A stretch of DNA of 64,000 nucleotides from Caenorhabditis elegans (lineage: Eukaryota > Nematoda > Chromadorea > Rhabditida > Rhabditidae): contig NC_003281.10 of NCBI RefSeq assembly GCF_000002985.6, positions 3,224,001 to 3,288,000 on the forward strand. The letters are read 5' to 3'. The position numbers and the translations under genes were made by a program. The notes under the pieces are model-generated. The model saw only the letters and a program-made list of their open reading frames with translations, was not told the origin of the DNA and searched no databases. Shown here piece after piece: positions 12,101 through 61,300 of this stretch (position 1 is its first letter; each line of letters begins with the position of its first letter).

Positions 12101-15100
12101 TCAAAAGTTTGAGTGAAAATTTGTAATCAGCTCACTGCGAGCTTCAAAATGACCCCCAACATGACTAGGCTCCGCCCATTTTTATATTTTTTGAAAAATT
12201 TTTGGGTCCTGCCACGAAACCTCTCAGTGAGTGGCACTATATGCAAATTTTGCGTTGCTAGTTTATTTGCTTGTTAGGTGTATAATTTATGTAAATTTTA
12301 AGCTATAAAAATTGCATAAATGTTGAAAATGGGTGGAGTTATGGGTTTTCGAAATTTTTCGAAATTTTTTTAAACCCTAAATTTCAATTTTTCAACTTCT
12401 TATTTAAGAAGTTCAGCAGAAAAATAGTTTTGGAATGAAATTCTGTGTCTAGGCCAGAAGCAACTTGATTTTTTTAAATCTCTTTTTACGAAAAGAGTAC
12501 TGTAGTTTTCGTGGGGAAAATTCGAAATGTTTCGAAAATCGATAACTTTCTCAATTTTTCAGATTTTTGAAAAATTTTAACTGAGAAAGATGCGTAAGCA
12601 TTTGAATTCGATGTGAAAAATATTTTTACTCACACATAGATCATATCTACAGTAACCCAAAGGTTTTCGTGGCGGGACCCAAGAATTGTGAACATTTCCG
12701 GAACCTAGTCATGTTTATACTTAAAAGAAAGGTATTTGAGTGCTGAAGCAGAATTTCATATTATTTTTCAACTTCCGTGAAAGCTGACAGGGTTACTATA
12801 GGTGCCAATTTTTAGAAATTTTCAGAAAATTCGAAATTTTTCGAAAATACATAACTTTGCCAATTTTCAATATTTTTATGTGATTTTTTTTTAAATTTTC
12901 TTGAATAAAAATTGAATCGTACTTAAAAACTATTAAAAACTCAAATTCCTGGAGGAAAGTCAATAATTTCGGGGTTTTTCCAGGATCTCCTACGGAAGAA
13001 CAGCTTCTCCGCCACCACCCTGTTCCAGGCAATTGAAGATTTGAAAACTCAATTTTCTGAAGCTCATGTAAGTTTTTTTTTAAAGTTTTTTTGTTACAAA
13101 AAATTTTGAGACAAAAAAATTTCAACATTTTTTTAAATTTTTTCCAGAAAATTTTCAAAATGTTTCAAATTTTTCTAAACTTGAAAAAAACAATTCCAGA
13201 TGTCCCGTCACTGGCTGCCACCAAGTATAACCCCGATCCTCCGCCTCGCAGCTTTAGAGCTCGAGAAACGGAATGGTGACGTCACGCCGTCCACTTCACC
13301 CCGCCCGCCGGCAATATTGGATCGTAAAAAATCAATTGATATGACGCTGGACACGTGTATTTCACAAGTTGAGACAATCACTCATGAGATGGATTATCAT
13401 GTTGTTAGGCTTATCAATAAGGCAAAGGATTATAGTGTAAGGACGAACAGTATCAAAACTATTTATTTGAAAACTTGTAGCCCTTGAAATTTCATACATT
13501 TCGTTGGTTGGAAACTTTTTGATAGCTCTACTCCCCGCGGAGATACAGGCGCTTAAAGCTTTGTGGCTAGAGAGTGTGGGAGGGGGAGAGACCCAGTGTG
13601 CGCGCGCCGCCTGCGTCTCTCCCCCTCCCACACTCTTTCACCCTCTTAACTTTGAACGCTGGTATCTCGGCGGGGAAAAGAGATATCAAAAAGTTTATGA
13701 CTAACGAATTGTATGGAATTTTAAGGGCTACAATTTGTTAGATGAACGTTTTTTGACATCTAGTTTTCTAAGAGAGTTATATACAGTTTAAAATTTTCAG
13801 TCATTCCAACCACTGGACTTGGATACAGTAACCCGGATCTCTAAACTAGTAGAGTCGCTGAAAACCAATTTGGACCAACTCACGGAGCACAGTTTCAAGG
13901 AAGACCGTCCGAATTCCGTGCTCTTCTTCGAAATCACGCATGATGATTTGAAGAGTTCAATCAAAAAGTACAGTGACGCGGAGGGCTCGATGAGCTCACT
14001 AGGCTCTGTGAAAAAAATTTCCGTGGCGCCGAAAATATCCGAAATTGTTGAGGAAGAAGATGTGGAAATTTTGGAGGAACGGAAACACGTGGAAGGAGAA
14101 ATTATGCGGATTATTGGGGAGATTGGAGAGAAAATCGATTTTTCTGGGCTCACGGAGCCCAGTAGAGCCGAGGGAATGATCAAGGTGGATGCAAGTGTTT
14201 TGAAGGTAATTTTCCCTGAAAATTCAAAAAAATTCACATAGTTTGGTCTTAAAATCAGCTGAAAATTTCTAAAATTGAAAATTTCTAAAATTGAAATTGA
14301 AGTTACGGATTTTCGAAACTTTTCGAATTTCAGATTCCAAATTTTTAAATTTAGGCTACAAAAACACGCTAAATTTTGAAGAAAATTTTGTGATATTACG
14401 ATTTTTAAAATCAGCTCGCCAAGACCTTTTAAATAACACCCATATTGGCTAGGCTCCGCCCATTTTGGGTCCCGCCGCGAAAACTACAGTAGTTTCGTGG
14501 TGGGACCCAAAGTGGGCGGTGCTTAGGCAATATGGGGCTCATTTTAAAGCTCTCAATGAGCTGAATTTAAAAATTACGACACTTCGCACTTTGATGCTGG
14601 GGGTACTGTAGTTTTAAAACTTTTTAATTTTGTGGTTTTCGAAATTTTTTGGATTTTTTCGAAAATCGATAACTCTGCCAGTTTTTGAAATTTTCGCTAA
14701 ATTTTTTCTACAAAATTTAGCACGGTCTCCATATTTTTTTGGAAAAATACACAATTCCGAATAGATGTTCATTCTACAGTACCCTAGCAGTTTTCGCGGT
14801 GGGACCCAATAAAATTCAGCATTACCGTAACCTAGGCAATATTGGGCTTATTTTGAAGCTCTTAGTGAGCTGAAATCAAATTTTGTACTGAAAATGCCTG
14901 AAAGTGTGTGAAAATCAATTATTTTCAAATTTTCAGATGCTAATCCAGCAGTCCCAGCGGCTTTTGGGCTCCTATGAAGCTTTGGAGTCAGAAAGAGAAA
15001 AAGCTCGCCGAAAACGATCGGCTCCACCAATGATTCTTGTAGAGAATTTGGAAAATTCTGAGCATTTGGAGCATTCAGAAGCTCCAATTTGTGCAAAACC

Positions 15101-17263
15101 AGCTCAAAATCCGGAAATAGACCTCCCAGAGGTCCCAAGTTTGGATCTGGAAGAGACCACGGAAAATCCGGAAATTCCAGAAATTTCTACACCACGAGAA
15201 GAAGATTCGGCTGAAAATTTGGAAAATTTGGTTGAAAATTCGGAAAAGTCTGAAATTTTGGAAGATTTGGAAGAAAATTCCAAAAATTTGACTGAAAATT
15301 CTGAAAAGCCTGGAATTTTGGAAGATTTGGCTGAAAATCCAGATCTTGAAGCTTCTAACCCAGAATTTGACGCCGAAAACGATGAAGAACATGCCAAAAT
15401 TGTGCAGAGCACGGAAAATGCACAAAATTTAACTGAAAATGATGAAAAATCTGAAAATCACGAGCATTTGCCAGAGAAACCTGGAAATCGATCAGATTTG
15501 GCTGAAAATTCAGATCTTGAAGCTTCCAAGCCAGAATTTTACGCTGAAAACGATGAAAAACACGCTGAACTTGTGCAGAGCACGAAAAATGCACAAAATT
15601 TGGCTGAAAATGGAGAAGAACCCGAAAATCCAGAAGCTTTGGCTGAAAATGCTGATGAAAACCCGGAAAACCTAGAATCACAAGCTTCTCAGGCAGATTT
15701 TTTGAGCAACACAGACGGAAATGCTCAAAATTTAGTTGAAAATCCGGAAATTTCAGACTTTCTAGTTGAAAATCAAGAAGAAACTGAAGAAAAGGTGTCT
15801 GAAGCAGCTGAAAAAGCAGAAAATCCGATGAAATTGGCGGAAATTGACGAAAATTCGGAAAATCTCGATATTTCGGCAGCTGAAAATGCTGAAAACGCTG
15901 AAAATCATGTTACAGCTGTAGCGGAATCGGAAAATTCAGAAAATTTCAGTTCGGAATCGGAAAACCCGGCTGAAAACGACGAAAACCCGGAAATTTCGAA
16001 AATTATGACGTCATCACCGCCGGGCACTCCCGAATCCGAGCCAATCGCCGATGATAGTGAAAGTGAGGACGAGAAGAGCACAATTCGATATATTCCGTCG
16101 AAAAATTCGGAATCTCTGCAAAATTCCATGGATAGTAGTGACGTCATCGAAGAGGAGGAGGTGAAGCTGGTGCCGAATGGTGACGTGGTACAAGCCGCCG
16201 CAGAGGACAGAATGTCAAGTCATTTGAAATCACATGTGAATACGGCTTCAGGAAAACCTCATATCACTTATCAGGTTCGTAGAAATCGGAATGAAAAATT
16301 TTGAAAAAAAAAGAAAACATTTTTTGATTAAAAATTTTTTTTTTGATTTTTAAAATTTTGAATTTTTTTTTTCTTAAAAATATATTAATTTTTTTTGTCG
16401 AAAATCTTTAATTTCACATTAAAACTACCTCCAAAATCTGTAAAAAATCGGAAAAAGTATCGAAAAGTCGATATTTTTGGGAAAAGTCGATAATTATCGA
16501 TTTTCGGATTTTTTTTTTAGAAATTTGACAGAAATCAATTTCAGAATTATTATTTGGTTCCGCGTAGTGCGCCGGTGAGGCAGGCGGCCACCGGCCCCGG
16601 CCGGCGCCCACATGGAAAATCAAATTTATCGATTTTCGGCAGATTTTTATCGATTTTTCGAATTTTTCTTGAATTTAGGAGCAACAGTATGATTATTCTT
16701 ATAGGAATTCAAATGCTTGCTAAAATTTCCGAAAAAAATATAAAATTTACCGGAAAATCAATATTTTTGAGAAAAATCGAGAGAAAGTATCGATTTTCGG
16801 CTGATTTTTATCGAGTTTTCGATTTTTTAAAGAAATTTGCGGTATATAAACAATATATAACACAAAACTTAGTTTCGAAATGTTCCTAAATGCTTAAACT
16901 TCAAAAAAAAAGCCAAATTCACCGAAAAATCGATAATTATCGATTTTCGGAATTCTTTAACCCGTTTTTTCGATTTTTTTTTTTTGGAAAATTTGAAGAA
17001 AACTATGTTCTCCATAACAAAAATCCCTTAAAAATTGGATTTTTCATTGAAATTCAAAAAAATCGATTTTTCTCCAGAAAATCGATAATTATCGATTTTT
17101 CGCCATTTTTACGACTTTTATCGATTTTTTCTCATTTCAAATGACTATTTTTCAGTATCCAATCCGCCGTTACTTCTCACCACCAATGAAACGCCGCTCG
17201 AAAAGTGAAGATCAAAAAATTCGGGAGACTCTGCGAAATCGGCCGCCTTTTATACTTTATTGA
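9102..17263 (+). CDS. FHA-domain protein with acidic, repetitive C-terminal half
   Basis: Twelve exons: 9102-9200, 9534-9650, 9718-9906, 10235-10450, 10817-11143, 11737-11964, 12984-13067, 13200-13436, 13801-14205, 14937-16274, 16545-16574, 17156-17263. All phases agree, giving about 1125 residues. Residues 1-100 form a forkhead-associated fold, with a TTIG strand, CDVVL, an IHA turn and VND. The Arg and Ser that normally grip phosphothreonine are replaced by Ser24 and Ala38. Next come a Ser-rich basic stretch, a His/Pro-rich segment and helical, probably coiled-coil regions (exons 6-9). Exon 10 is a 446-residue Glu/Asn/Ala-rich, probably disordered region with internal repeats. The C-terminus is short and basic. 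The start follows a TTTCAG acceptor at 9078-9083. FHAD1-like and other FHA scaffolds are the nearest idea; orthology is not established. The 30-nt exon 11 is the least certain part. Confidence 0.8.
9284..9485. repeat. Family P palindrome in FHA intron 1
   Basis: Same structure as the copy at 572-775: CCCCGCGGAGATACA on the left, TGTATCTCCTCGGGG on the right, with a GCGCGCGCCGCCTGCGTCT core. It fills most of the 333-bp intron. Confidence 0.8.
9985..10225 (+). repeat. 19-bp minisatellite in FHA intron 3
   Basis: About twelve imperfect units of CTTGGCGCAATTCTCGTGC. A related array lies in the next intron (10545-10795), separated only by exon 4. The long minus-strand reading frames seen here are artefacts of the repeat. 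Confidence 0.9.
10545..10795 (+). repeat. 19-bp minisatellite in FHA intron 4
   Basis: About thirteen units of the same CTTGGCGCAATTCTCGTGC family as in intron 3, filling most of the intron. The same unit flanks exon 4 on both sides. Confidence 0.9.
11131..11650. repeat. CGTGGCGGGACCC foldback copy in FHA intron 5
   Basis: Matches 7783-8300. It contains GGTCTCGCCACGGG near 11210 and TTTCGTGGCGGGACCC near 11544. Related pieces in the same gene: 12135-12250 and 12640-12720 (intron 6), and 14395-14560 and 14775-14880 (intron 9). Most are paired as inverted repeats around TACTGTAG. Confidence 0.8.
13500..13707. repeat. Family P palindrome in FHA intron 8
   Basis: CCCCGCGGAGATACAGG and TGGTATCTCGGCGGGG arms around a GGGAGGGGGAGAGACC and GCGCGCGCCGCCTG core. 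It occupies over half of the 364-bp intron. Confidence 0.8.
16300..17150. repeat. ATCGATAATTATCGAT-type repeats in FHA introns 10 and 11
   Basis: Dozens of self-complementary ATCGATTTT and AAAATCGAT blocks. The same sequence style continues beyond the gene end (17390-17660) and into NDUFA9 introns (18130-18700), so both convergent genes share it. Confidence 0.75.
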
Positions 17264-20800: not shown

Positions 20801-23800
20801 TTTTTAGCAATTTTTTGACAATTTTCTGTGTGAAAATCGAAAATTTTGTTACATTTTTGAGGAGAAAACGATTTTTGCCAAAATTCTACCAATTTTCGAC
20901 TAGTTTTATCAAATTTTGGGTGAAATTCCGAAAATTTTCAGTTTTGTGCCAAATTTCAGCCATTTTCAGTCATTTTTGGACAATTTAAATGGTTTTAAAG
21001 CTTTTTTTCATAAAATTTCGCAAATTCCAGCGTTTATAGGTAACTTTAAGCCTCATTTCCTTGAATTTTGAAATTTTTTTTCTCTAATTTTTAAGCAAAT
21101 TAAATAAATTCCATCAATTTTTAGCGAATTTCACATATTTTGAGCAACTTTATATGAAATTTCGAGACTTTTCATAAATATTTGGACTCATTTTAATTGT
21201 ATTAAAAGCCAATTTTTATGAATTTTGACATTTTTCAGTTCATTTGGATTTATTGTAATGAATTTTGAGTCATTTTTTTCAATTTCAAGCGAATTTTCAT
21301 GAAATTTCGTAGATTTAGACCGATTTTCACGGATTTTCGACTTTTTATTTTTAAAATTCAGTTATTAGGTCAAATTACACCATTTTTGGCCGAGGTTTTG
21401 AGTCAAAATATGCGAAATTTGGACATTTTTTGCATTTTTTCGCAAAAAAAAAATTGTGCCTACTTTATGCCTACCGCCGCCTACCATCAATTTTTTTTCG
21501 GCAAAAATGGACAATTTTAAGCCAAAATTTGCAAATTTCGGTGAATTTTTCTGGAATTTTACCGATTTTTACATTTTGATGAAATTTAAGCAAAAATTCA
21601 AGTTTTTCAGTCAAAATTTGTCATTTTTAGCAATTTTTTGACAATTTTCTGTGTGAAAATACGATTTTTGCCGAAATTCTACCAATTTTCGACTAGTTTT
21701 ATCAAATTTTATGAAATTTTGGGTGAAATTCCGAAAATTTTCAATTTTGTGCCAAATTTCAGCCATTTTCAGTCATTTTTGGCCAATTTAAATGGTTTTA
21801 AGGCTTTTTTTTCATAAAATTTCGCAAATTACAGCGTTTCTCGAATTTTGAGTAATTTTTCCGATTTTCAAACAAAAATTGGTCATATTTTGAACAATTT
21901 TCAGTAATTTTTGGCCGATTTGTTGGAATTTTTGACTTTTTAAATTTAAAATTCAATTTTTAGACGGACTTATGCCAATTTCCTTGAATTTTGAAATTTT
22001 TTTCTAATTTTTAAGCAAATTAAATAAATTCCAGCAATTTTTAGCGAATTTCACGTATTTTGAGCAACTTTATATGAAATTTCGAGACTTTTCATAAATA
22101 TTTGGACTCATTTTATTTGTATTAGGCCAATTTTTATGAATTTTGACATTTTTCAGTTCATTTGGATTTATTGTAATGAATTTTGAGTCATTTTTCTCAA
22201 TTTCAAGCGAATTTTCATGAAATTTCGTAGATTTAGACCGATTTTCACGGATTTTCGACTTTTTATTTTTAAAATTCAGTTATTAGGTCAAATTACACCA
22301 TTTTTCTCGATTTTCATGAAATTTTCTACTTTAAAAAAAAATTTTTTTTCGTCATTTTTGGCCGATTTTCACGTATTTTAGGTCATTTTTCATGAATTTT
22401 CGCCCAATTTTCAATATTCAAACAATTTTCAGCCATTTTTGAATTTTTATTGACTAAAATTCAGTTTTTTGGTCAAATTACTTCAATTTTTTTGAATTTT
22501 AAGTAATTGTTCAGCATTTTTGGCGAATTTCACGTATTTTGAGCTTTTTTTAAAATGTATTTTATGAAATTTTGATTAATTTCGTTCAAAATTCGGTTGA
22601 AAATGGATTTTTCTATAATTTTAATCAATATTAACGGAAAATAAAATTTTTTTGACAATTTTTAATGTGAAAATCGTAAATTTTCAAAAAATCTCGGTTT
22701 TTGTGAGTTTTTCGTTAAAATATTTAATTTTGTGCCAAATTTCAGCCATTTTCAGTCATTTTCGGCCAATTTTCACGTATTTTAGGTCATTTTTCATGAA
22801 TTATCGGCCAATTCCGTACCCAAATCGGCATTTTATACGTTTCTTCTCCCTTCTTGTACAAATACACATAATCCAATGGAGTTTTTCGCCATCTTGACAC
22901 ATAATATTGAATAAATCCATCCAATTCACCGTAGATCACAGATGGGCGAATAATTGTTGCTTCTGGGAATTCTTCACGTACAGCAACTTCTCCGAGTCCT
23001 TTTGAATGAAGAAATTGCGATTTTGCGACAAAATGTCCCTTTTGTGGTTGTGTAGTTGCTCCGAGAGCCGACAAATGCACAAATTTCTCCACACCCATTT
23101 CTTTGCAAATTCGAGCCAAACGGCGGGCTCCCGTGTCGTTGACGTCATAGTAATTGTACTTTCTGCAAGGAAAAATGGCTTAAAATTGGGATTTTTAGAA
23201 GGAAAAAGTGGGGAAATTTGAATTTTTCAATAGAAAATGGCAGTTTTCTCGAAAATTTTGGAGAAAAATTGAGCAATTTAGTTTTTTTTGAATTTTTTAA
23301 AAATATTTTTTGAATTTTCAGTGAAAAAAACGGCGCGAAACTCAAAATTTTGAAGATTTTTCGGACATTTTTCAAATTTTTAGCCAAAAAGTGGAGCCAA
23401 ATTCAAAATTTAAGGGGATTTTTCAATTTTTAATTGATTTTCAGTTGGAAAAAGTGAGGAATTTTGAGTTTTTCAATGAAAAAACTGGAAAAAAAGAGCT
23501 TTTTTTTTGAATTTTGAATGATAATTTGGTGTAAAAAAATTTATTTTTTGAATTTTCAGTAGGAAAAAAGGGTTAAATTCCACATTTTGAAGGTTTTTCA
23601 GGCATTTTTTCGAATTTTCAGCGAAAAAGAGTGATTTATTTGGTCAAAAACGGCGCGAAATTTGAATTTTTTGAATTTCCGGCATATTTTGTGAATTTTT
23701 CCGCTCAAAAATCTGCAATTTCCTCACCCAGTCGGCACACGAGTTCCGATCAAGTTGATGACGACGTTCGAGTACTTTACAGCCTGAAAAATTGATTTTT

Positions 23801-25212: not shown

Positions 25213-25289
25213 CACATTGCTTTGTGGCTTTGCTGGTAACTCTTTTGCCTTTCACGCAACACACCGGGGTTCGACTCCGCACTGTGGTT
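25213..25289 (+). pseudogene. Degenerate tRNA-Glu(UUC)-like relic
   Basis: A perfect B box, GGTTCGACTCC (25268-25278), and a near A box, TGGCTTTGCTGG (25225-25236), are followed by a T-rich Pol III stop from about 25290. The anticodon loop reads CTTTCAC, as in tRNA-Glu with anticodon UUC. The T stem has two mismatches. The acceptor stem pairs well only if shifted (CACATTG with ACTGTGG), which puts the A box out of register. It is therefore most likely a pseudogene or tRNA-derived repeat. Confidence 0.4.
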
Positions 25290-25366
25290 CTTTTCTTTTT
25301 TTTTCTCGATTTAACCAATTTTAGTCAATTAAAATTCAAATTTAACGATTAAAACCAATTTATTTA

Positions 25367-26538
25367 TCACGTGGAACCCAGAAAAGGAGAAAATTTCGGC
25401 CTAAAAAAGTTGAGACACTTGTTAAACGCCGGATTCCTGAAGCAATTCGAGCTGCACTCGGCGGCTAGATTCGGCTGGTCGACTGAAAACATTTCATGGC
25501 AAAGTAGGCATATTCTCGTGAGCACTTCGTTTAGAGCCGGTCGTCGGTAAGCCTGGAAATCAAAAAATATTCCGAATTCTTGAAAAAATGCGGAAAAAAT
25601 CGGCGAAAAACTAGGGTTTTGAATGATTTTTCTCAAATTTTTCAATTTTTTTCAGCGAAATATCGAATAAAAATCGATATATCTCCAGAAACCCCCGAGA
25701 TTTCCACCATTTAAGCAAAATTCTCAATGGAGCGCGTTTGCAGCTTCGTTGTTCGCTAGAGCGCACTTACTTTGCAGTTCCTCGAATGGTGGTCGGGGCG
25801 GGAAAATGAAAATCCGGCAAACGTGACGATAAGTAAGAAGAATACTGGAAAAATCAATGGAATTGTTTAGGCCACAGTGGTTTTTTGGCAGATATTTAGA
25901 GTTTTAAAAAATAATTTTCACAGAAACGTTGGCCGAAAGTTAATTTCCAGCGGCGAAATCGCGGAAAAATGGAGCTTTTCGAAGAAAAATTTCGTGGCCT
26001 ATTTTTTCAGCTGGTTTTTCTTGGCCACGTCTTAAAATTTGAAAAAATTTGATTAAAAAGCAAATTAAGCACGTTTTTCAAAATTAAAAGTGAAGACATA
26101 ACGCGTTTCTCGAAAAATTTGCAATTTTCTAGAAAAATGCTGCGTGGCCTAACTTTTCCGGTTATTTTTCTAGGCCACGTCTGAAAATTAGTTTTTTATT
26201 GAAAAGCAACGAAATTTTTCAAATTTTTCATACTAAAACTGAAAAAAATAGATTCTTCACGGAAAAATTTCACTTTTTGTGAAAAATTTCCCATGGCCTA
26301 ACTTTTCCGGTTTTTTTTCTCAGCCATGTCTGAAAAATTAAGAAAAATTTGGGGAATCCATGAAATTATGCATGTTTTCTACGAAACATAATTGAAAAAA
26401 AAAACGGTTTTCTGCTAAAAACCATGCGTGGCCTAACTTTTCTGGATTTTCTAGGCCACTGAGCCCGAATATGGGGTTTCTAGGCCACGTGGGTCCTGAA
26501 TCCAACAATAACTTACATAAGTGGTTTAATCCGTTCAT
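25367..26538 (-). CDS. CHH/ITP-like secreted neuropeptide
   Basis: Three exons on the minus strand: 26538-26517, 25844-25771, 25552-25367. Phases agree, giving 93 residues. Residues 1-22 are a clear signal peptide (MNGLNHLL, then a hydrophobic stretch). The mature part has exactly six cysteines with spacings 15-2-14-3-8. Crustacean hyperglycaemic hormone / ion transport peptides have 15-2-12-3-8. RIC-x2-C, M-F, N-C-F and F-x2-C-L lie where the family places them. No dibasic-flanked precursor-related peptide is present, so the hormone domain follows the signal peptide almost directly. The TGA falls after a 12-residue tail with no obvious amidation site. The 22-nt first exon hides it from simple ORF scans. 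Likely a secreted neurohormone-like ligand. The assignment rests on cysteine pattern and motifs, not on a search. Confidence 0.75.
25960..26490. repeat. TGGCCTAACTTTTCCGG repeats in ITP-like intron 1
   Basis: Four spaced copies of GCGTGGCCTAACTTTTCCGG-type sequence (about 26000, 26150, 26290, 26430), each followed by CTAGGCCACGTCTGAAAA, making repeated GGCC-centred foldbacks. Confidence 0.7.
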
Positions 26539-26679: not shown

Positions 26680-26950
26680 CCTATATATATCGTGTTGCGC
26701 GGGAGAGGTGTCATTCGATACAATACGACGTAATTTCCTCTTCCAAAGAGGCGAATTTGTGTCCTCTTCCGCCCAGTTTTCTGAGATTTTGCACGATTTT
26801 GGGCGGTTTTTTTTGGGATTTTTGCATTTTTCAGCCGGAAGCTTGCGCTAGACGCGATTTTTGATTACTCACGGGATGGTTTTAGGGGTATATTGTAGTT
26901 TTTAGCAGGGGTAGGCATGGGCCCCTTTCACTGGGGATTGGTGACGTCAT
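26680..26950 (-). promoter_or_regulatory. Promoter-like region of the ITP-like gene
   Basis: A TATATATAT stretch at 26687-26695 lies about 150 bp before the start codon, next to a GC-rich GTTGCGCGGGAGAGG block. TGACGTCA, a perfect CRE/CREB site, lies at 26942-26949, about 400 bp upstream. Function is inferred from position. Confidence 0.35.
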
Positions 26951-43306: not shown

Positions 43307-46300
43307 TTATGAAGAAGAAGATGTGGATGGCATGTCGCGCTGAAAATATAGAATAACTTAGTTTTTTTTGGTTTTATCAAAAATTTGGCAACTGACAAGA
43401 TATTTGGCATAAATTTTTGCATAAATTTGTAGTTGGAAATATTTAGATAATGGTAAAATGAACCGAGATATTTGCTCTGAAAGCAAGGCTAGTTTTTTTT
43501 TTTTAAACATGGTGCATCGACCCAAAATTCAACTTAACGGGGTATATCTTGGTTGGCTTTAATTTTAACAAAACATTCTCAACTAATGAAATATTAAGCG
43601 TATATTTTTTCATAAATTTGTAGTTGAAAATATTTAGATAACGTTAAAATGAACCGAGATATGAGCAGTCAAAGTTAAGTTAGTTTTTTTTTAAATTAAG
43701 CATGGTGCATTGACCAAAATCTTAACTGTAAGTCCCGTATCTCGGTAATAGTTGGATTTATCAACGTGGTACATCAATGATAACCTACCCCAATAGCCCC
43801 ACTGGAAGTGGTGGCCAATCTCTCCTGAAGCGGCACCAGCAAGCTCATCGCTGCCGGGTCGTGCTCGAGAATATAAGTCCTCAATGTGTCCAAAGCATGA
43901 CTGACTTCCTTATCAGCAACTTTAATCTGACAACTTCTCATCACATTGAATATAGTATCACCGCCACCGTCGGGTTCTTGGGATGAAGCCGATGCTCCTG
44001 ATGCTCCAGCCGAGGAGGTGCTCGGCATCATTCGGGAATCCACCACTGGCGGTGTCATCATGGAATTGATCATATTCTGGAGATGATTCGACGAGGAAGT
44101 CGTTGGAGGTTCCTGGACAACCATTTGTTGGGGGAATCCGCTTAGGGAACTGAAGAAGCTCGCCGCAAACTCATCTGGAGCACTTTGAGGGAAGAAGGAT
44201 GGGGGTTGCTGGTGAAGCATATGGGATTCCATGTCGAGTTCTCGGCATTCTTTGTCAACTTCTTCGTACATATCATTCTCGTAGCATACTGGATATCCGG
44301 TCATTGACTTGAGATCGATGCGGTGTCGGCGTTTGAAAGCGTCCAGCCAACCTTCGGAGCCGCGGAACGATTCAAGGCCTGGAATTTGGGGATTTTTTGA
44401 TAGAAAATCGGGGGATTTTATCTCAAGAAAAAAGAAAGGAAAATGAAATTGTTTGTTATTTTTTGGAAATTTTCAAGTAATTTTTTAAGGAATTTTATAG
44501 GGTTTTTTTTTTGGAATTTTTTGGAAATTTTAGGATTTTTTGGAAATTTTAGGATTTTTTGGAAATTTGTAGGAATGTTTTTTTGGAATTTTAAAGGAAT
44601 TTTTCGGAAAATTTTAGGCTTTTTTTGGACATTTCTATAAATTTTTTTTAGAAATTTTTTGGAGTTTTTTAAAGTTTTTTTTTTTTGGAATTTTTTTTTC
44701 TAGGGTTTTTTTGGAAATTTCAAAGAAATTTTCAGGATATTTTTAAAGAAATTTTTAGGATTCTTTTTAAAACAATTTTAGGAACTTTTTTTTGGAATTT
44801 TTAGGATTTTTCATTGGAAAAACGGAAACTAGTTTTTTTTTTGAAATTTAGAAAAAAAAAGTATTTATTTTGAAAACTACTTAAATTTTTTTTCCAAACG
44901 CTGAAATGTTTGAAATATTTTAAATAATTTTTCAAAGTTATAAATTTTCAGACTATGGGCTATATTTTAATATTCATTTTTTAATTAAAAAAAAAGAACA
45001 AAAGGTTACCAAAAAAACTTTTGTTTTTGAATTTTCAAGAATTTCAAAAAAAAAATTTTTCATAGATTTTTTAAAATCAAAATCAATTTCTACAACGCCT
45101 TACCCATATCCTTAGCATATCTCATTGCTTGATCCTTCAACTGCTTCCCATTAATCTGAATTCCAGCGGCCTGACAATCCTTGAAGTGCCTCCACACCAT
45201 TTTGTTCAAATCCACATAGTGAGTTCGTCGAATTTTACTTTTCGGCCTCATCATGTCACCGATTGTAGAGTTCTTTGACGGCGCCGTTGTGATGTCGGGG
45301 GAATCCGGAGATTCGGGATTCTCGAGAAGAAATTCAGCGATTTGGTGACGTGTGATTAGCGTTCGGGTGCCGATTGTTTCTTGTACCTGGAATAGGGTTT
45401 TTGAGGGGTTTTGAGTGGTTTTTCAGAGTTTTTAATGTAAAAATTGAGTTTTCGGGTTATTTTTGCATTTAGATAAAGTATTTTTAATTTAAAAAAAAAA
45501 TTTTTAAAATTTATCGGAAAATTTCTAAAAAATTTTGGAATTAAAAAAAAATTTTCGCAAATCACGGAAGATTTAAAATGTGAAAATTGATTTTTTTTCT
45601 GTAAAATTTTACAGTTAAAATGTTTGAAATTTGAATGAATTTTTAAAAAAATTTCAAAAATCCAAAAAAAAAATTGTTAGAGGAAAAATTATTTTTGTAT
45701 TCAAAATTGCTAATTTAGCTAAATTTTTTCAGGGATTTAACGTCGTTTTTTTTTAAATTTTTTTATAGCAAAAATAAAATTTCCCTTCAATTTTTACATC
45801 TAGATGTTTAAATTGAACAAAAAATTCAAGAAAATAAATTTAAAAATAATTTTGAAAAATTCAAAAAAAAAATTTTTTGAAGTAAATTTTTTTTATTCCA
45901 AAAAATCATGAATTTCCATATTTTGGCAATTTTTTCAATAATTTTAAAGCAGAAATTTGAAATTTTCAATAATTTTTGCACTTAAATGTTCAATTTGGGA
46001 CAATTCGATTTTTTTTTTTGAAAACTCGGAAAAAAAATTTCGAGTGCCAAAAGTCTACCTGTCCCAAAAATACAGCATTAAAGAGCTGGCGGTGGTTTTG
46101 GCGTATTTTAATGTGAAAAATCGAGTTCACCGGCAATTTTTACCCCTAGAAGGGCAATAATGAAAATTTTGAAAAATTCGAAAAAAAATAGTGTACTCAC
46201 CGATCGAACAGTACAACTGAATCGTCTGGAAATCTCAAGAATCGGGATTTCAGCGTCGTAAATTATGAGTATCTGTCGACGGGACTCAAATGGAAGTGAC

Positions 46301-50900: not shown

Positions 50901-53900
50901 AGGGATCCTCCGGATGCTGCGGCATAGTTGTAAGTCTTGGATTCTTTGACAATAGACTCCTGCACATCCTCCATTGGTGGCATGATCAGAGCGCCCATCG
51001 GAACATCGTTCTCGCTCAGCGTTCGATTCACAAACTCCGTTGCTAGCTCGGAGGTCAGGGATTGACGGACTTTGTAGTTCTTGAAGTTCTTGGCCAGCAG
51101 CTGCTTGACAGTCATGTTGGGTCCCCTGTTGCGAAGCTCGTTGAGATCCTTCTGAGATATACCTCCGACGATTTCCGAGTCTTGGTTCAGAATGGAGTCC
51201 AGGCTTTTGTTGGAGAACGTGGTGAGTGGGACTCCGCTTGCCGTGCACGGGATCAGGGGCTGGAAAATGATGAAAAAATTATTTTTCAAAGTTTTGATTA
51301 TTTTAAACGGATACACGTGGTGTCAGAGTGTCTCATTTCGGTTTGGTATACGTAGATCTACAAAAAATGCGGGAGAGACGCAGAGTTCTCAACTGATTTC
51401 TCATGGTTAAGAACGTGCTGACGTCAAATTTTTTGAGCAAAAAAATCCCGCATTTTTTTAGGTCAAACCGTAATAGGACAGCCCTAAAAAATTTTTAAGA
51501 ACATTTTTTAAGGATTTTCTAATTTTCGAATATGTACTCGAAAAGGTTTTTTTTCAGAAAAAAATATTTTTGACGGCTTTTTCACATTTTAATACATACT
51601 AACTTTTAATAATTTTCTACAGTGCGTGCAACTTCTATAGCGCCCCCCTATTTTTTTGCGTTTCAGGCCATTCTAATTTTTTTCTTGAAAAACTGACAAT
51701 GCCATTCGATTCCAAATGTCGAAAACCCCTTTTCCAGAATTTTAATGAAAAAATCACGAAATCTGATGTAATTAGGTCAAAAAATCGTAAAAACAGCCGT
51801 GCAACTTCTATAGCGCCCCCTCAGAATTTTGAAAATTTTCCAACAAAACCCCATTTTTGGTCATTTCTAGAGACAACAAAATAATAAAACGGAGCCAATT
51901 TGATCCCGACATCCTACTGATTTACTGTCAGCAGAATATTATACGTAGAAACTCTTAGGATCCCGTAATAGTCCTGAAACTCTCCATTTTGCGTTAGAGG
52001 CCCGTTCTCGGCTCCCAGTGGTGGGATCGGCTCCAAAACTGACGAAAATGTTCTGATACACTCAACAATTGCTGAAATTTGTTTTTTTTTAACGTGTGAC
52101 GTGTCCATTAGTGGCAATCGGATGCCAAAAATGCTGTTCATTACTTTTATTCGCAATGCCACGAGGTTCACAGCTGTCAGTCGAAGAACAAGCCAAGCTT
52201 GATGTAATGGCAAGTCTTAATGTATCTAAAAATGAAATGGCTCGTCAAATCAACCGATCCCGCAAATGTGTTTACAATTACCTTAACAATCCACTTGGTT
52301 ATGGACAAGCCAAGAGAGCTCCTCGGAAGACAATTTTATCTAGTCGTGATGAAGGGAACATCTATAAAATTGCTTCGAATTCTTTCAAATCAGCCAACGA
52401 AATTCGTAAGGAACTGAAATTAACAGCGTCCAAAAGAACCATTATCAATACTCTCAACAAAAACCCATCGATCACGCGCCAGAAAATGATGAAAGCTCCA
52501 TCAATGACTCCAAATCATATGATAAAGCGATTGGATTTTGCCAAAGAAAATATGGGAACCGAATGGACCAAGGTATGTTGAACAATTTCACAATTAGATA
52601 AAATCTGTTGAGTTTTTTAGATTGTTTTCTCCGGCGAGAAGAAATTCAACCTGGATGGTCCAGATGGCAATCGATACTACTGGAGAGATCTGAGAAAGGA
52701 TCCGTTAATCTTTTCTAAGCGAAATTTTGGAGGTGGATCGGTAATGGTGTGGGCAGCGTTTTCGGAGAAAAAAAAGCTGCCAATCCAATTTACAAGTCAT
52801 AAGATGAATGCAGTTGATTATCAGAAAGTTTTGGACCAAGACCTTGTCAAGTTTATGCGACATCCGTCAAAGAAAGGCTGGATGTTCCAACAAGACAACG
52901 CGAGTATTCACAGTGCCGCTTCAACCCGTGCTTTTCTCGACAGCAAAAAGATCAAATTGTTGAAGTGGCCAGCTTGTTCACCGGATCTCAATCCAATCGA
53001 GAACTTATGGGCATCGCTTGTCAGAATTGTCTACGCTAATGGAAAACAGTATCCAAATGTGGCTGCACTAAAACTTGGTATTGAGGATGCTTGGAAAGAA
53101 ATCTCCGCAGCCGAAATGAAGAATCTCGTCAATTCAATGTCCAATCGAGTTTTCGAAGTCATCGCCAAGAAGGGAGGTCCCACGAAGTATTGATCCTTCA
53201 TCCAGTTAATAAATATTGTTGTTTTAATTGATTTCAGTCCACTTCTGGATACTGAAGGGCGAATAGTTCAATCTGATACAAGTTTCACACAACCTACAAC
53301 TCTGTTAATTTGTGAAAAATCTTTCAGACATGTGTCCATGAGTGTATCAGAACATTTTCGTCAGTTTTGGAGCCGATCCCACCACTGGGAGCCGAGAACG
53401 GGCCTCTAACGCAAAATGGAGAGTTTCAGGACAATTACGGGATCCTAAGAGTTTCTACGTATAATATTCTGCTGACAGTAAATCAGTAGGATGTCGGGAT
53501 CAAATTGGCTCCGTTTTATTATTTTGTTGTCTCTAGAAATGACCAAAAATGGGGTTTTGTTGGAAAATTTTCAAAATTCTGAGGGGGCGCTATAGAAGTT
53601 GCACGGCTGTTTTTACGATTTTTTGACCTAATTACATCAGATTTCGTGATTTTTTCATTAAAATTCTGGAAAAGGGGGTTTTCGACATTTGGAATCGAAT
53701 GGCATTGTCAGTTTTTCAAGAAAAAAATTAGAATGGCCTGAAACGCAAAAAAATAGGGGGGCGCTATAGAAGTTGCACGCACTGTACTAAAATTTATTTA
53801 AAAATTTGAAAAAAATAATTTCGGAAAGCTCGGAATTTTGAACGTTAAAAAATGTTTTTTTTTTTTTTTTTTAATTTTAAAGAAATTTAATGATTTTTTT

Positions 53901-58309: not shown

Positions 58310-61300
58310 ATGTCTGAAAAAGAGGAAAATGAGCTACCGCGGAGCACGGAAAAAGCGAAAATTTCCACAATTTCCTCGAATTCTATAGATAGTGGAGGAA
58401 AAAGTGAAAGTGATATGTGAGTCTTTTTTTTTAATTTCAGAAAAAAATTAATCAAATTTGAAATATTCACTTTGAACTTAACTAAAACTTAAAAATATTC
58501 CAAAAAATATTTTTTAAAGTTATATTCCAGTAATTTTGAATTTGAAAAATTTTGAAAAAAAATTCAAAACATTTTTTTTTCAATTTTCAATATTTTTAAA
58601 GTGGGTGGAGCCTAATTGAATTTTTTTTTAGTTTTGAGAAAAGTTTCCAAAATGTTTCCAAAGCTCTATAATGGTGTGGAAAAAAATTTAAGAATTATAT
58701 TTTTTTGAACAAAAAATTTGAAAACCATTAAGTGGGCGGAGCCTAAATTATGGGCGGGGCTTCACTTGATTATTTTTTTTTAATTTTGACGTAATTTTAC
58801 ATTTAAAAAAAATCTCCCAATTTGAAAAATTTTTTTTTACTTCAAAAGTTTAATTTTTAGACTTTTTTTTAAGTGGGCGGAGCCTAAATAATGGGCGGGC
58901 CTCATTAAATAATTAAAAAAATTTTTTTTTTTAAACTAAACTAAAAAAAGCAACTTAAAAATTGTTCCAAGCAAAATTCGATTTTTTTTGGAGAAATTTT
59001 TTCCACATTTCCAAAAATTTCCAAAAAAAAATCCCAATATTTTCCAGAATAATCGATAATCGAGAAACATCATGGCAATCGATATATTTACTAACTGCAA
59101 TCGGAATGTTCTGTGGAATTCAATTTTCAATATTTTTCCCGACACTATGGCCGTTTTTAAATACAGTGGACCCAACGGCTTCTGCCTCTTTTTTCGGTTT
59201 TATTACTGCCGCTTTTTCTGTTGGGCAGGGCCTGGCTTCGCCGGTTTTTGGGTATTGGATGAATAAAGCAAAATCTGGTGAGTTATTGATTTTTTTGGAA
59301 TTAAAAAAAAAAGATTTTTTTGAAATTTAAAAAAAAAAAAAAATTCTTTGAAATTTTCTTCTTCCAAATTTCGTTCAAGTTTCTCCAAAACTTCAAAACC
59401 ACTCAAAATTCAAATTTGTCACGTTTAGACCTTCAAAATGACCCCCACATTCCCCAGGTTCCACTAGTTTTGAGGGTTTAGGGTCCCGCCACGAAAACCT
59501 TTTGGTTACTGTAGTTTTTGTGTAAAGTATTTTTAGCAAGTAATTCAAATACTTTTACATTTTTTAACGCTAAAAACTATAAAAAATATTGAAAATTGAC
59601 AAAGTTATAGATTTTCGAAAAGTTTCGAAAAAACTATTTTTTGAATTTTTTTTGGAATATTGGAAATTGTAATTTTCGAGCGTTTAATTTCAATTTGCTT
59701 AATTTTTGCACATCAAAAGCTTAAGAATTATTCATATTGCCTAGATTCCATAAATTTTGGGTCTTACCGCGAAAAGCTACAGTAATCATCGTGGCGGGAC
59801 CCGGAAATTCTCAAATGTCATTTGAAACCTTGAAGCGAGCTGAATTTGAATTTTGTGGTTTCAAAATTAAAAAAAAACTGTTTTCGAGAAAAAGTTGGGG
59901 TTAAAACAATTTTCAGAAAAAAAAATTTCAATATTTTTCAGTCCGCCAACCATTGGTATTTGGAATTTCCGTAATGATTCTATCAAATATAATTTTCTGT
60001 TTTGTGGAGGCTTTTGCTGAAAAAGAACGTCGCTGGGTAATGATGGTCGCCCGTTTCTTCATTGGCGTCGGCGCGGGGACCATTGGAGTTATGAGAGCCT
60101 ACGCGGCCACAGCCAGTAGTTTAAAGGACCGTGCACGGGCTATCACATTTATTCAGGCTTCTTACGTTATTGGAATGACGTTAGGACCCGGTATTCAGGT
60201 TTGTGGGGGGTTTTTCGGATTTGAAAATCTTGGATTTTTCACTTTTTTCTTCCAGGCTCTAAATGTCTGTAACTTTTTTGAAATTAAGTTATCAAAAAGT
60301 TGTCAACTAATACAATGTAGTGCTTTAAATTTGCTACAAATTGTTAATTGACTACTTTGCTGTAACTTCACTCTCCACGGAGCTTTAACTTGTTAAAGCC
60401 CAGAAGCGAGATACACGTATTGGCTTTCATTGCCTGTAACTCTACAATGAGTGAAGATATCAAAAAGTTATCAACTGACATTTTGTAGAACTTAAAGTTT
60501 CCTATATTTTGTTAGTGAGAAACTTTTTGATATCTCTAGCCATCACTGAGATACAGGACTTTTTAAGTTTCCAACTGGAGAGGGCGAGAAGGCGCAGACA
60601 GCTAGAGAGAGTACTCTCGTCGTCTTCGCTCTCCAAAAAATTTTTTGGGTTTTTATATTTGAATTTTTTCTAGTTTTCAACTTGTTCAGAGCATTTTTCA
60701 GATTATCCTACAATTATAAAAATTTTCAAATTAAAAAAAAAATTTTCAAAATTTTTTTCGCAAAAATCACAAAAAAAAGAATGCTCAAAATTTTCAAACT
60801 TTTTTGGCGGAGCTTGAGCAAGTTTATATTTTTCTGAAAGCTCATAAATAGCTCTATTTAATTTTTTAAAAACATAATAATCAAATCTGAGACATTTCTC
60901 GAAATTTAGGAGGAATTTGGAGCGAAAATTTTTTTGAAATAATTTTTTTTTTTAAATTTGAATCCTAATTTTGTGAAGGTTTAGAGTTTTTAGGGTACAA
61001 AAATTTCGAAATTTTAAATTTTCATACTAAAAACCCCTAAAATCTACTCAAAACTCATTTTCTGAGACTTTTCCCAACACAGAGCTTCAACTTTTTTCAA
61101 ATTTCCGGTTTTCATGTACTACCCATCAGTGTCACATTTATAACTTCTGTGATAACTCTAATATTTCATTCAAAGATTATATGATTTTCATGTCCAAAAA
61201 GCGAATTATTTGCAGTTTTCTTATCAATTTCTCCAGTTTTACTCGCCACATGGTGCTGACACAGACACTGTGATGACTAGACGGAAAAATATAGGGAAAA

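Follow-up and report, generated by a model that had tools for sequence, protein, structure and literature searches.

A probable third CHH/ITP-family peptide gene on chromosome III of Caenorhabditis elegans

Known family members and the layout of the chromosome III gene

In peptides of the CHH family, disulfides pair cysteines 1-5, 2-4, and 3-6. Precursors of type I (CHH/ITP) carry a precursor-related peptide and a dibasic site, and in type II (MIH/GIH) the signal peptide is directly followed by the mature peptide, which is marked by an extra glycine after cysteine 1. Mature peptides of the family were described as being 72 to more than 80 residues long (PMC7560641). For Caenorhabditis, the available text of Montagne et al. 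(2010) describes two CHH/ITP paralogues, with mature lengths of 83 residues for ZC168.2 (ITP1) and 97 residues for C05E11.6 (ITP2), and reports that, of the family genes known, only Caenorhabditis ITP2 and Trichinella ITP lack a phase-2 intron after cysteine 4 (PMC2841656).

A further CHH/ITP-like gene of C. elegans was located at III:3,249,367-3,250,538 on the minus strand, corresponding to positions 25367-26538 of the window, i.e., the 64 kb of chromosome III analyzed here (III:3,224,001-3,288,000). Whole-genome searches covered 100,286,401 bases in 7 contigs. As judged from its sequence, the locus is very probably a genuine protein-coding gene and a third C. elegans member of the family. 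Its features, in window positions, are as follows:

26682..26689, minus strand: possible TATA box TATATATA, 151 nt upstream of the ATG; suggestive only
26517..26538, minus strand: exon 1, 22 nt, seven codons beginning with the ATG and one further base; opens the signal peptide; GTAAGT donor
25845..26516, minus strand: intron 1, 672 nt, phase 1, GTAAGTTATT...ATTTTTCCAG, lying in the signal peptide
25771..25844, minus strand: exon 2, 74 nt, with the remaining signal peptide, the start of the mature peptide, and cysteine 1
25553..25770, minus strand: intron 2, 218 nt, phase 0, GTAAGTGCGC...TGATTTCCAG, one codon past cysteine 1
25367..25552, minus strand: exon 3, 186 nt with the stop codon, encoding cysteines 2-6 of the CHH/ITP domain and the C-terminus
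25359..25364, minus strand: possible poly(A) signal AATAAA, starting 2 nt past the stop codon

The original prediction had joined these three exons by hand, and its model proved exact to the base (26538-26517, 25844-25771, and 25552-25367): the exons of 22, 74, and 186 nt add up to 282 nt including the stop codon and encode 93 residues. Both introns are of the GT...AG type, with GTAAGT donors and TTCCAG acceptors. No in-frame ATG was found in exon 2 between the acceptor and the nearest upstream stop, and a separate first exon is therefore required. When candidates were defined as running from an ATG to an in-phase GTAA or GTGA donor over at most 200 nt and within 2 kb, seven first exons were obtained, and a GTAAGT donor was seen only in the 22-nt exon. 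Support for the part of the model formed by exons 1 and 2 comes mainly from the splice signals, the open frame, and cysteine 1, because the Pfam match described below begins after this cysteine.

Other signals carry less weight. Overlapping copies of TATATATA are also found 112-116 nt ahead of the ATG of the chromosome IV relative; this is a hint only, since the motif occurs seven times in the window. The GC content of exons 2 and 3 (0.46 and 0.48) is higher than that of the introns (0.34 and 0.36), but this is weak evidence for a gene because 6.3% of the 186-nt stretches in the window equal or exceed exon 3. Within intron 1, positions 25859-26488 are taken up by four to five divergent repeats, mostly spaced by about 150 nt, whose unit has arms GTGGCCTAG.../...CTAGGCCAC. 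The whole intron, searched against the genome at E 0.01 while skipping very common words, matched only itself.

It had also been stated that simple ORF scans miss this gene. This was borne out for the gene start, but not for exon 3: its open frame of 94 codons, containing five of the six cysteines, was found unspliced in a six-frame Pfam search of the 100-Mb genome (E 1.8e-5) and scored above the Pfam cut-off. The label "hidden" is overstated.

Judging from the matches found around it, the gene is probably part of clone Y53G8: DGAT2-family matches at III:3.101-3.104 Mb, presumably Y53G8B.2, Ras-family matches at III:3.314-3.316 Mb, which we take to be Y53G8AR.3 (ral-1), and a frame with a major-facilitator match at window positions 59905-60348. 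The latter could be mfsd-8, which carries the name Y53G8AR.7 (PMC12246578).

The predicted peptide and its family match

The N-terminus of the 93-residue protein was read by eye as a signal peptide (MNGLNH, then LLFFLLIVTFAGF, then SFS). The six-cysteine domain announced for the spliced protein was recovered, with cysteines at residues 31, 47, 50, 65, 69, and 78 and a spacing of 15-2-14-3-8. Once the first ~22 residues are removed, the predicted mature peptide has about 71 residues, close to the family range given above (PMC7560641), and 15 of its residues lie beyond cysteine 6.

The family search proposed as a check on the spliced protein supported the assignment. PF01147 (CHH/MIH/GIH family) matched with 31.3 bits, above the curated cut-off of 25 (E 1.9e-7), and was the only Pfam family reported up to E 10. 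The aligned region runs from position 15 to 51 of the 67-position profile and from residue 42 to 80 of the protein, beyond cysteine 1. Among solved structures searched with phmmer, the best match of the peptide was crustacean CHH 5b5i (E 1.1e-7), with which it has the cysteine order in common, and a hyperglycemic-hormone-like peptide, 5xs1, was matched over residues 30-79, including cysteine 1 (E 0.0037). A profile built from the peptides of chromosomes III, IV, and X matched 5b5i with E 1.5e-9, the cysteines being in register and a two-residue gap falling between cysteines 3 and 4. When exon 3 alone was folded without an alignment, three helices were predicted (mean pLDDT 70.3, pTM 0.50), and this exon-3-only fold matched no solved structure.

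The precursor differs from crustacean CHH and insect ITP in having no precursor-related peptide, no amidation signal, and no ancestral phase-2 intron. Neither KR nor RR was found between the signal peptide and cysteine 1; the only RR in the precursor is located past cysteine 1, directly before a proline, and the C-terminus has no terminal glycine that could serve for amidation. The gene thus lacks both marks of type I CHH/ITP precursors, the precursor-related peptide and its dibasic site. Its layout, from signal peptide directly to mature peptide, is that of type II MIH/GIH, but its sequence matches type II weakly (1j0t, E 0.75), and the type II glycine is absent: the fifth residue past cysteine 1 is R, and the loop between cysteines 1 and 2 contains no glycine.

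Controls were run against chance resemblance. The pattern C-x2-C-x12..14-C-x3-C-x8-C without a stop occurs once in the six frames of the window, at this locus, and this pattern of cysteines 2-6 was not found in any of 30 mononucleotide-shuffled windows. The protein aligned with its relatives on chromosomes IV and X with scores of 134 and 128, respectively. After free shuffling, none of 5000 sequences reached these scores (best 63 and 53), nor did any of 5000 in which the cysteines were kept fixed (best 71 and 74).

The relatives on chromosomes IV and X

Searching the genome with the spliced protein returned its own exons, followed by loci at X 4.56 Mb (E 3.7e-9) and IV 10.73 Mb (E 0.018). Used as queries in turn, the X and IV proteins recovered each other and the chromosome III gene (E 7.8e-10 and 5.8e-8). 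The six-frame Pfam search detected III and X and missed IV, because an intron splits its domain, but IV was detected by the protein searches. Modeling gave proteins of 108 (IV) and 152 (X) residues, with mature lengths of 83 after a cut following residue 25, a position chosen for IV to fit the published length of 83, and of 97 after RR for X. Since these lengths equal the published ones, the IV gene would fit ITP1 (ZC168.2) and the X gene ITP2 (C05E11.6).

The three genes share much. In PF01147, the two relatives in the genome scored 35.3 and 30.2 bits, and the chromosome III protein falls within their range. ITP1 and ITP2 have in common with it PF01147 scores above the cut-off, the R-I-C..C-H-E, P-N, and E-C...C-F motifs, and exactly the spacing 15-2-14-3-8 of the domain cysteines; the signal peptide of IV contains an additional cysteine. 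The prediction had singled out an interval between cysteines 3 and 4 that is longer by two residues. This difference is real when set against crustacean CHH 5b5i (14 residues instead of 12), but it is no oddity of the new gene: each of the three worm genes has 14 residues at this place. Seventeen columns are invariant among the three mature peptides.

They also differ in several respects. ITP2 has a dibasic RR before its mature peptide and the III protein does not, and the residues beyond cysteine 6 number 15 in III, 17 in ITP1, and 41 in ITP2. The introns differ in position: phase 0 past cysteine 1 in III, phase 2 past cysteine 4 in ITP1, and phase 0 before cysteine 1 in ITP2, where the X gene has phase-0 introns upstream of that cysteine. 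The ancestral phase-2 intron of the family, in the codon after cysteine 4, is thus present in the IV gene and absent from X and III. It is not a condition of membership, because Caenorhabditis ITP2 and Trichinella ITP also lack it according to the available text of PMC2841656.

Over a 48-residue core, identities were 19/48 between III and IV, 18/48 between III and X, and 26/48 between IV and X. By this measure, the III gene is the most diverged of the three copies; it may either have split first or have evolved faster, as three sequences give no rooted tree. It is not simply degraded, because its resemblance to crustacean CHH equals that of the IV gene (5b5i, the best match among solved structures for all three peptides: E 1.8e-7 for IV, similar to the 1.1e-7 of III; X is weaker, with E 0.0027).

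Alternative readings, possible function, and surroundings

Several other explanations of the locus were weighed. It could be a decaying ITP-family duplicate that is still readable but no longer expressed, in line with its being the most diverged of the three copies and with an AATAAA placed only 2 nt past the stop codon. However, at about 40% core identity, the six cysteines, the frame, both pairs of splice sites, and the start are all intact, whereas stops would be expected after so long a time without selection; together with a resemblance to crustacean CHH as close as that of the IV gene, this makes a pseudogene very improbable. That open frames were joined by chance, with no gene present, is scarcely credible: although the joins were picked by hand and a first exon this short counts for little statistically by itself, no shuffled sequence reached the scores of the paralogues, even with cysteines fixed, and the genome-wide E value speaks against it as well. 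A chance origin of exons 2 and 3 was rejected on the basis of the Pfam and genome searches and the shuffles; exon 1 alone could be wrong. A real gene belonging to the CHH/ITP family is, on the evidence of the sequence, very probable.

What the peptide does is a separate question. A secreted, helical, disulfide-bonded peptide of CHH descent could have a non-endocrine job, for instance in defence or as a secretion of the gut or of males. Arthropods provide a precedent, with probably at least three recruitments of the CHH superfamily for venom (PMC7560641), and the III gene, which is the worm's oldest or fastest-evolving branch, lacks the precursor-related peptide and the amidation signal. Nevertheless, the R-I-C, C-H-E, P-N, E-C, C-F, and F..C residues are common to III and both worm relatives, some of these non-cysteine residues also occur in crustacean CHH, and nothing points to any particular other use, so that we consider such a job improbable.

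By analogy with the family, from which we infer its neurohormone status, the product is probably a secreted hormone. A signal peptide of ~22 residues would be cleaved off, and the helical core of the remaining ~71-residue peptide would be held by three disulfides (1-5, 2-4, and 3-6). Neurons or other secretory cells would probably release this peptide, and it would act as a hormone on a surface receptor, with effects on salt and water balance or on metabolism. Because fly ITPa signals via the receptor guanylate cyclase Gyc76C, whose clade is one of two confined to protostome phyla having ITP (PMC12611267), a related worm receptor guanylate cyclase is proposed as the first candidate, which we advance tentatively. 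As for the two relatives, RNAi of C05E11.6 was reported to increase mean lifespan by 10%, and this gene was among the inactivations in a study of reproductive senescence (PMC4256158). ZC168.2 was listed as a target of the ATF-6 branch of the unfolded-protein response (PMC12055002) and was strongly lowered by chalcone treatment, its function being given as unknown (PMC13164716).

The family itself is known, and the chromosome III copy seems to have been little noticed. The open-licence literature searched yielded, within the text available there, no mention of a third C. elegans gene of this family, and none is named in the accessible parts of PMC6693516, PMC2841177, PMC1525192, and PMC3096668. 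The gene may well be annotated in WormBase already, perhaps even with its Pfam domain. The most far-reaching reading, and a rather unlikely one, would be a third hormone whose lineage is older than the separation of ITP1 from ITP2, which the published count missed and which serves as a separate ligand for one of the worm's receptor guanylate cyclases. With a third gene, the published description of Caenorhabditis as having two paralogues would change. C. elegans would be a good system in which to study the roles of CHH/ITP peptides outside arthropods: a third copy could mask the effects of single ITP1 or ITP2 knockouts, and with three known genes, a triple knockout and ligand-receptor pairing become feasible.

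Just downstream of the gene, on the plus strand, the stretch at ~25235-25310 looks by eye like the 3' half of a tRNA (GGGGTTCGACTCCGCACTGTGGT). Neither ARAGORN nor Rfam called a tRNA there, and a portion of it is 86% identical to a single site on chromosome IV. For the longest listed open frame in the window, neither Pfam (E 0.01) nor the solved structures (E 0.001) gave a match. This frame and the other features observed in the window are the following:

14892-16304, plus strand: longest listed open frame, 470 codons from stop to stop
22790-23179, minus strand: open frame with a match resembling RmlD/NAD-dependent epimerase
43777-44472, minus strand: open frame with a Tc5 transposase DNA-binding domain
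52093-53190, plus strand: Tc3-type transposase frames (HTH_Tnp_Tc3 and DDE_3), two adjoining open frames
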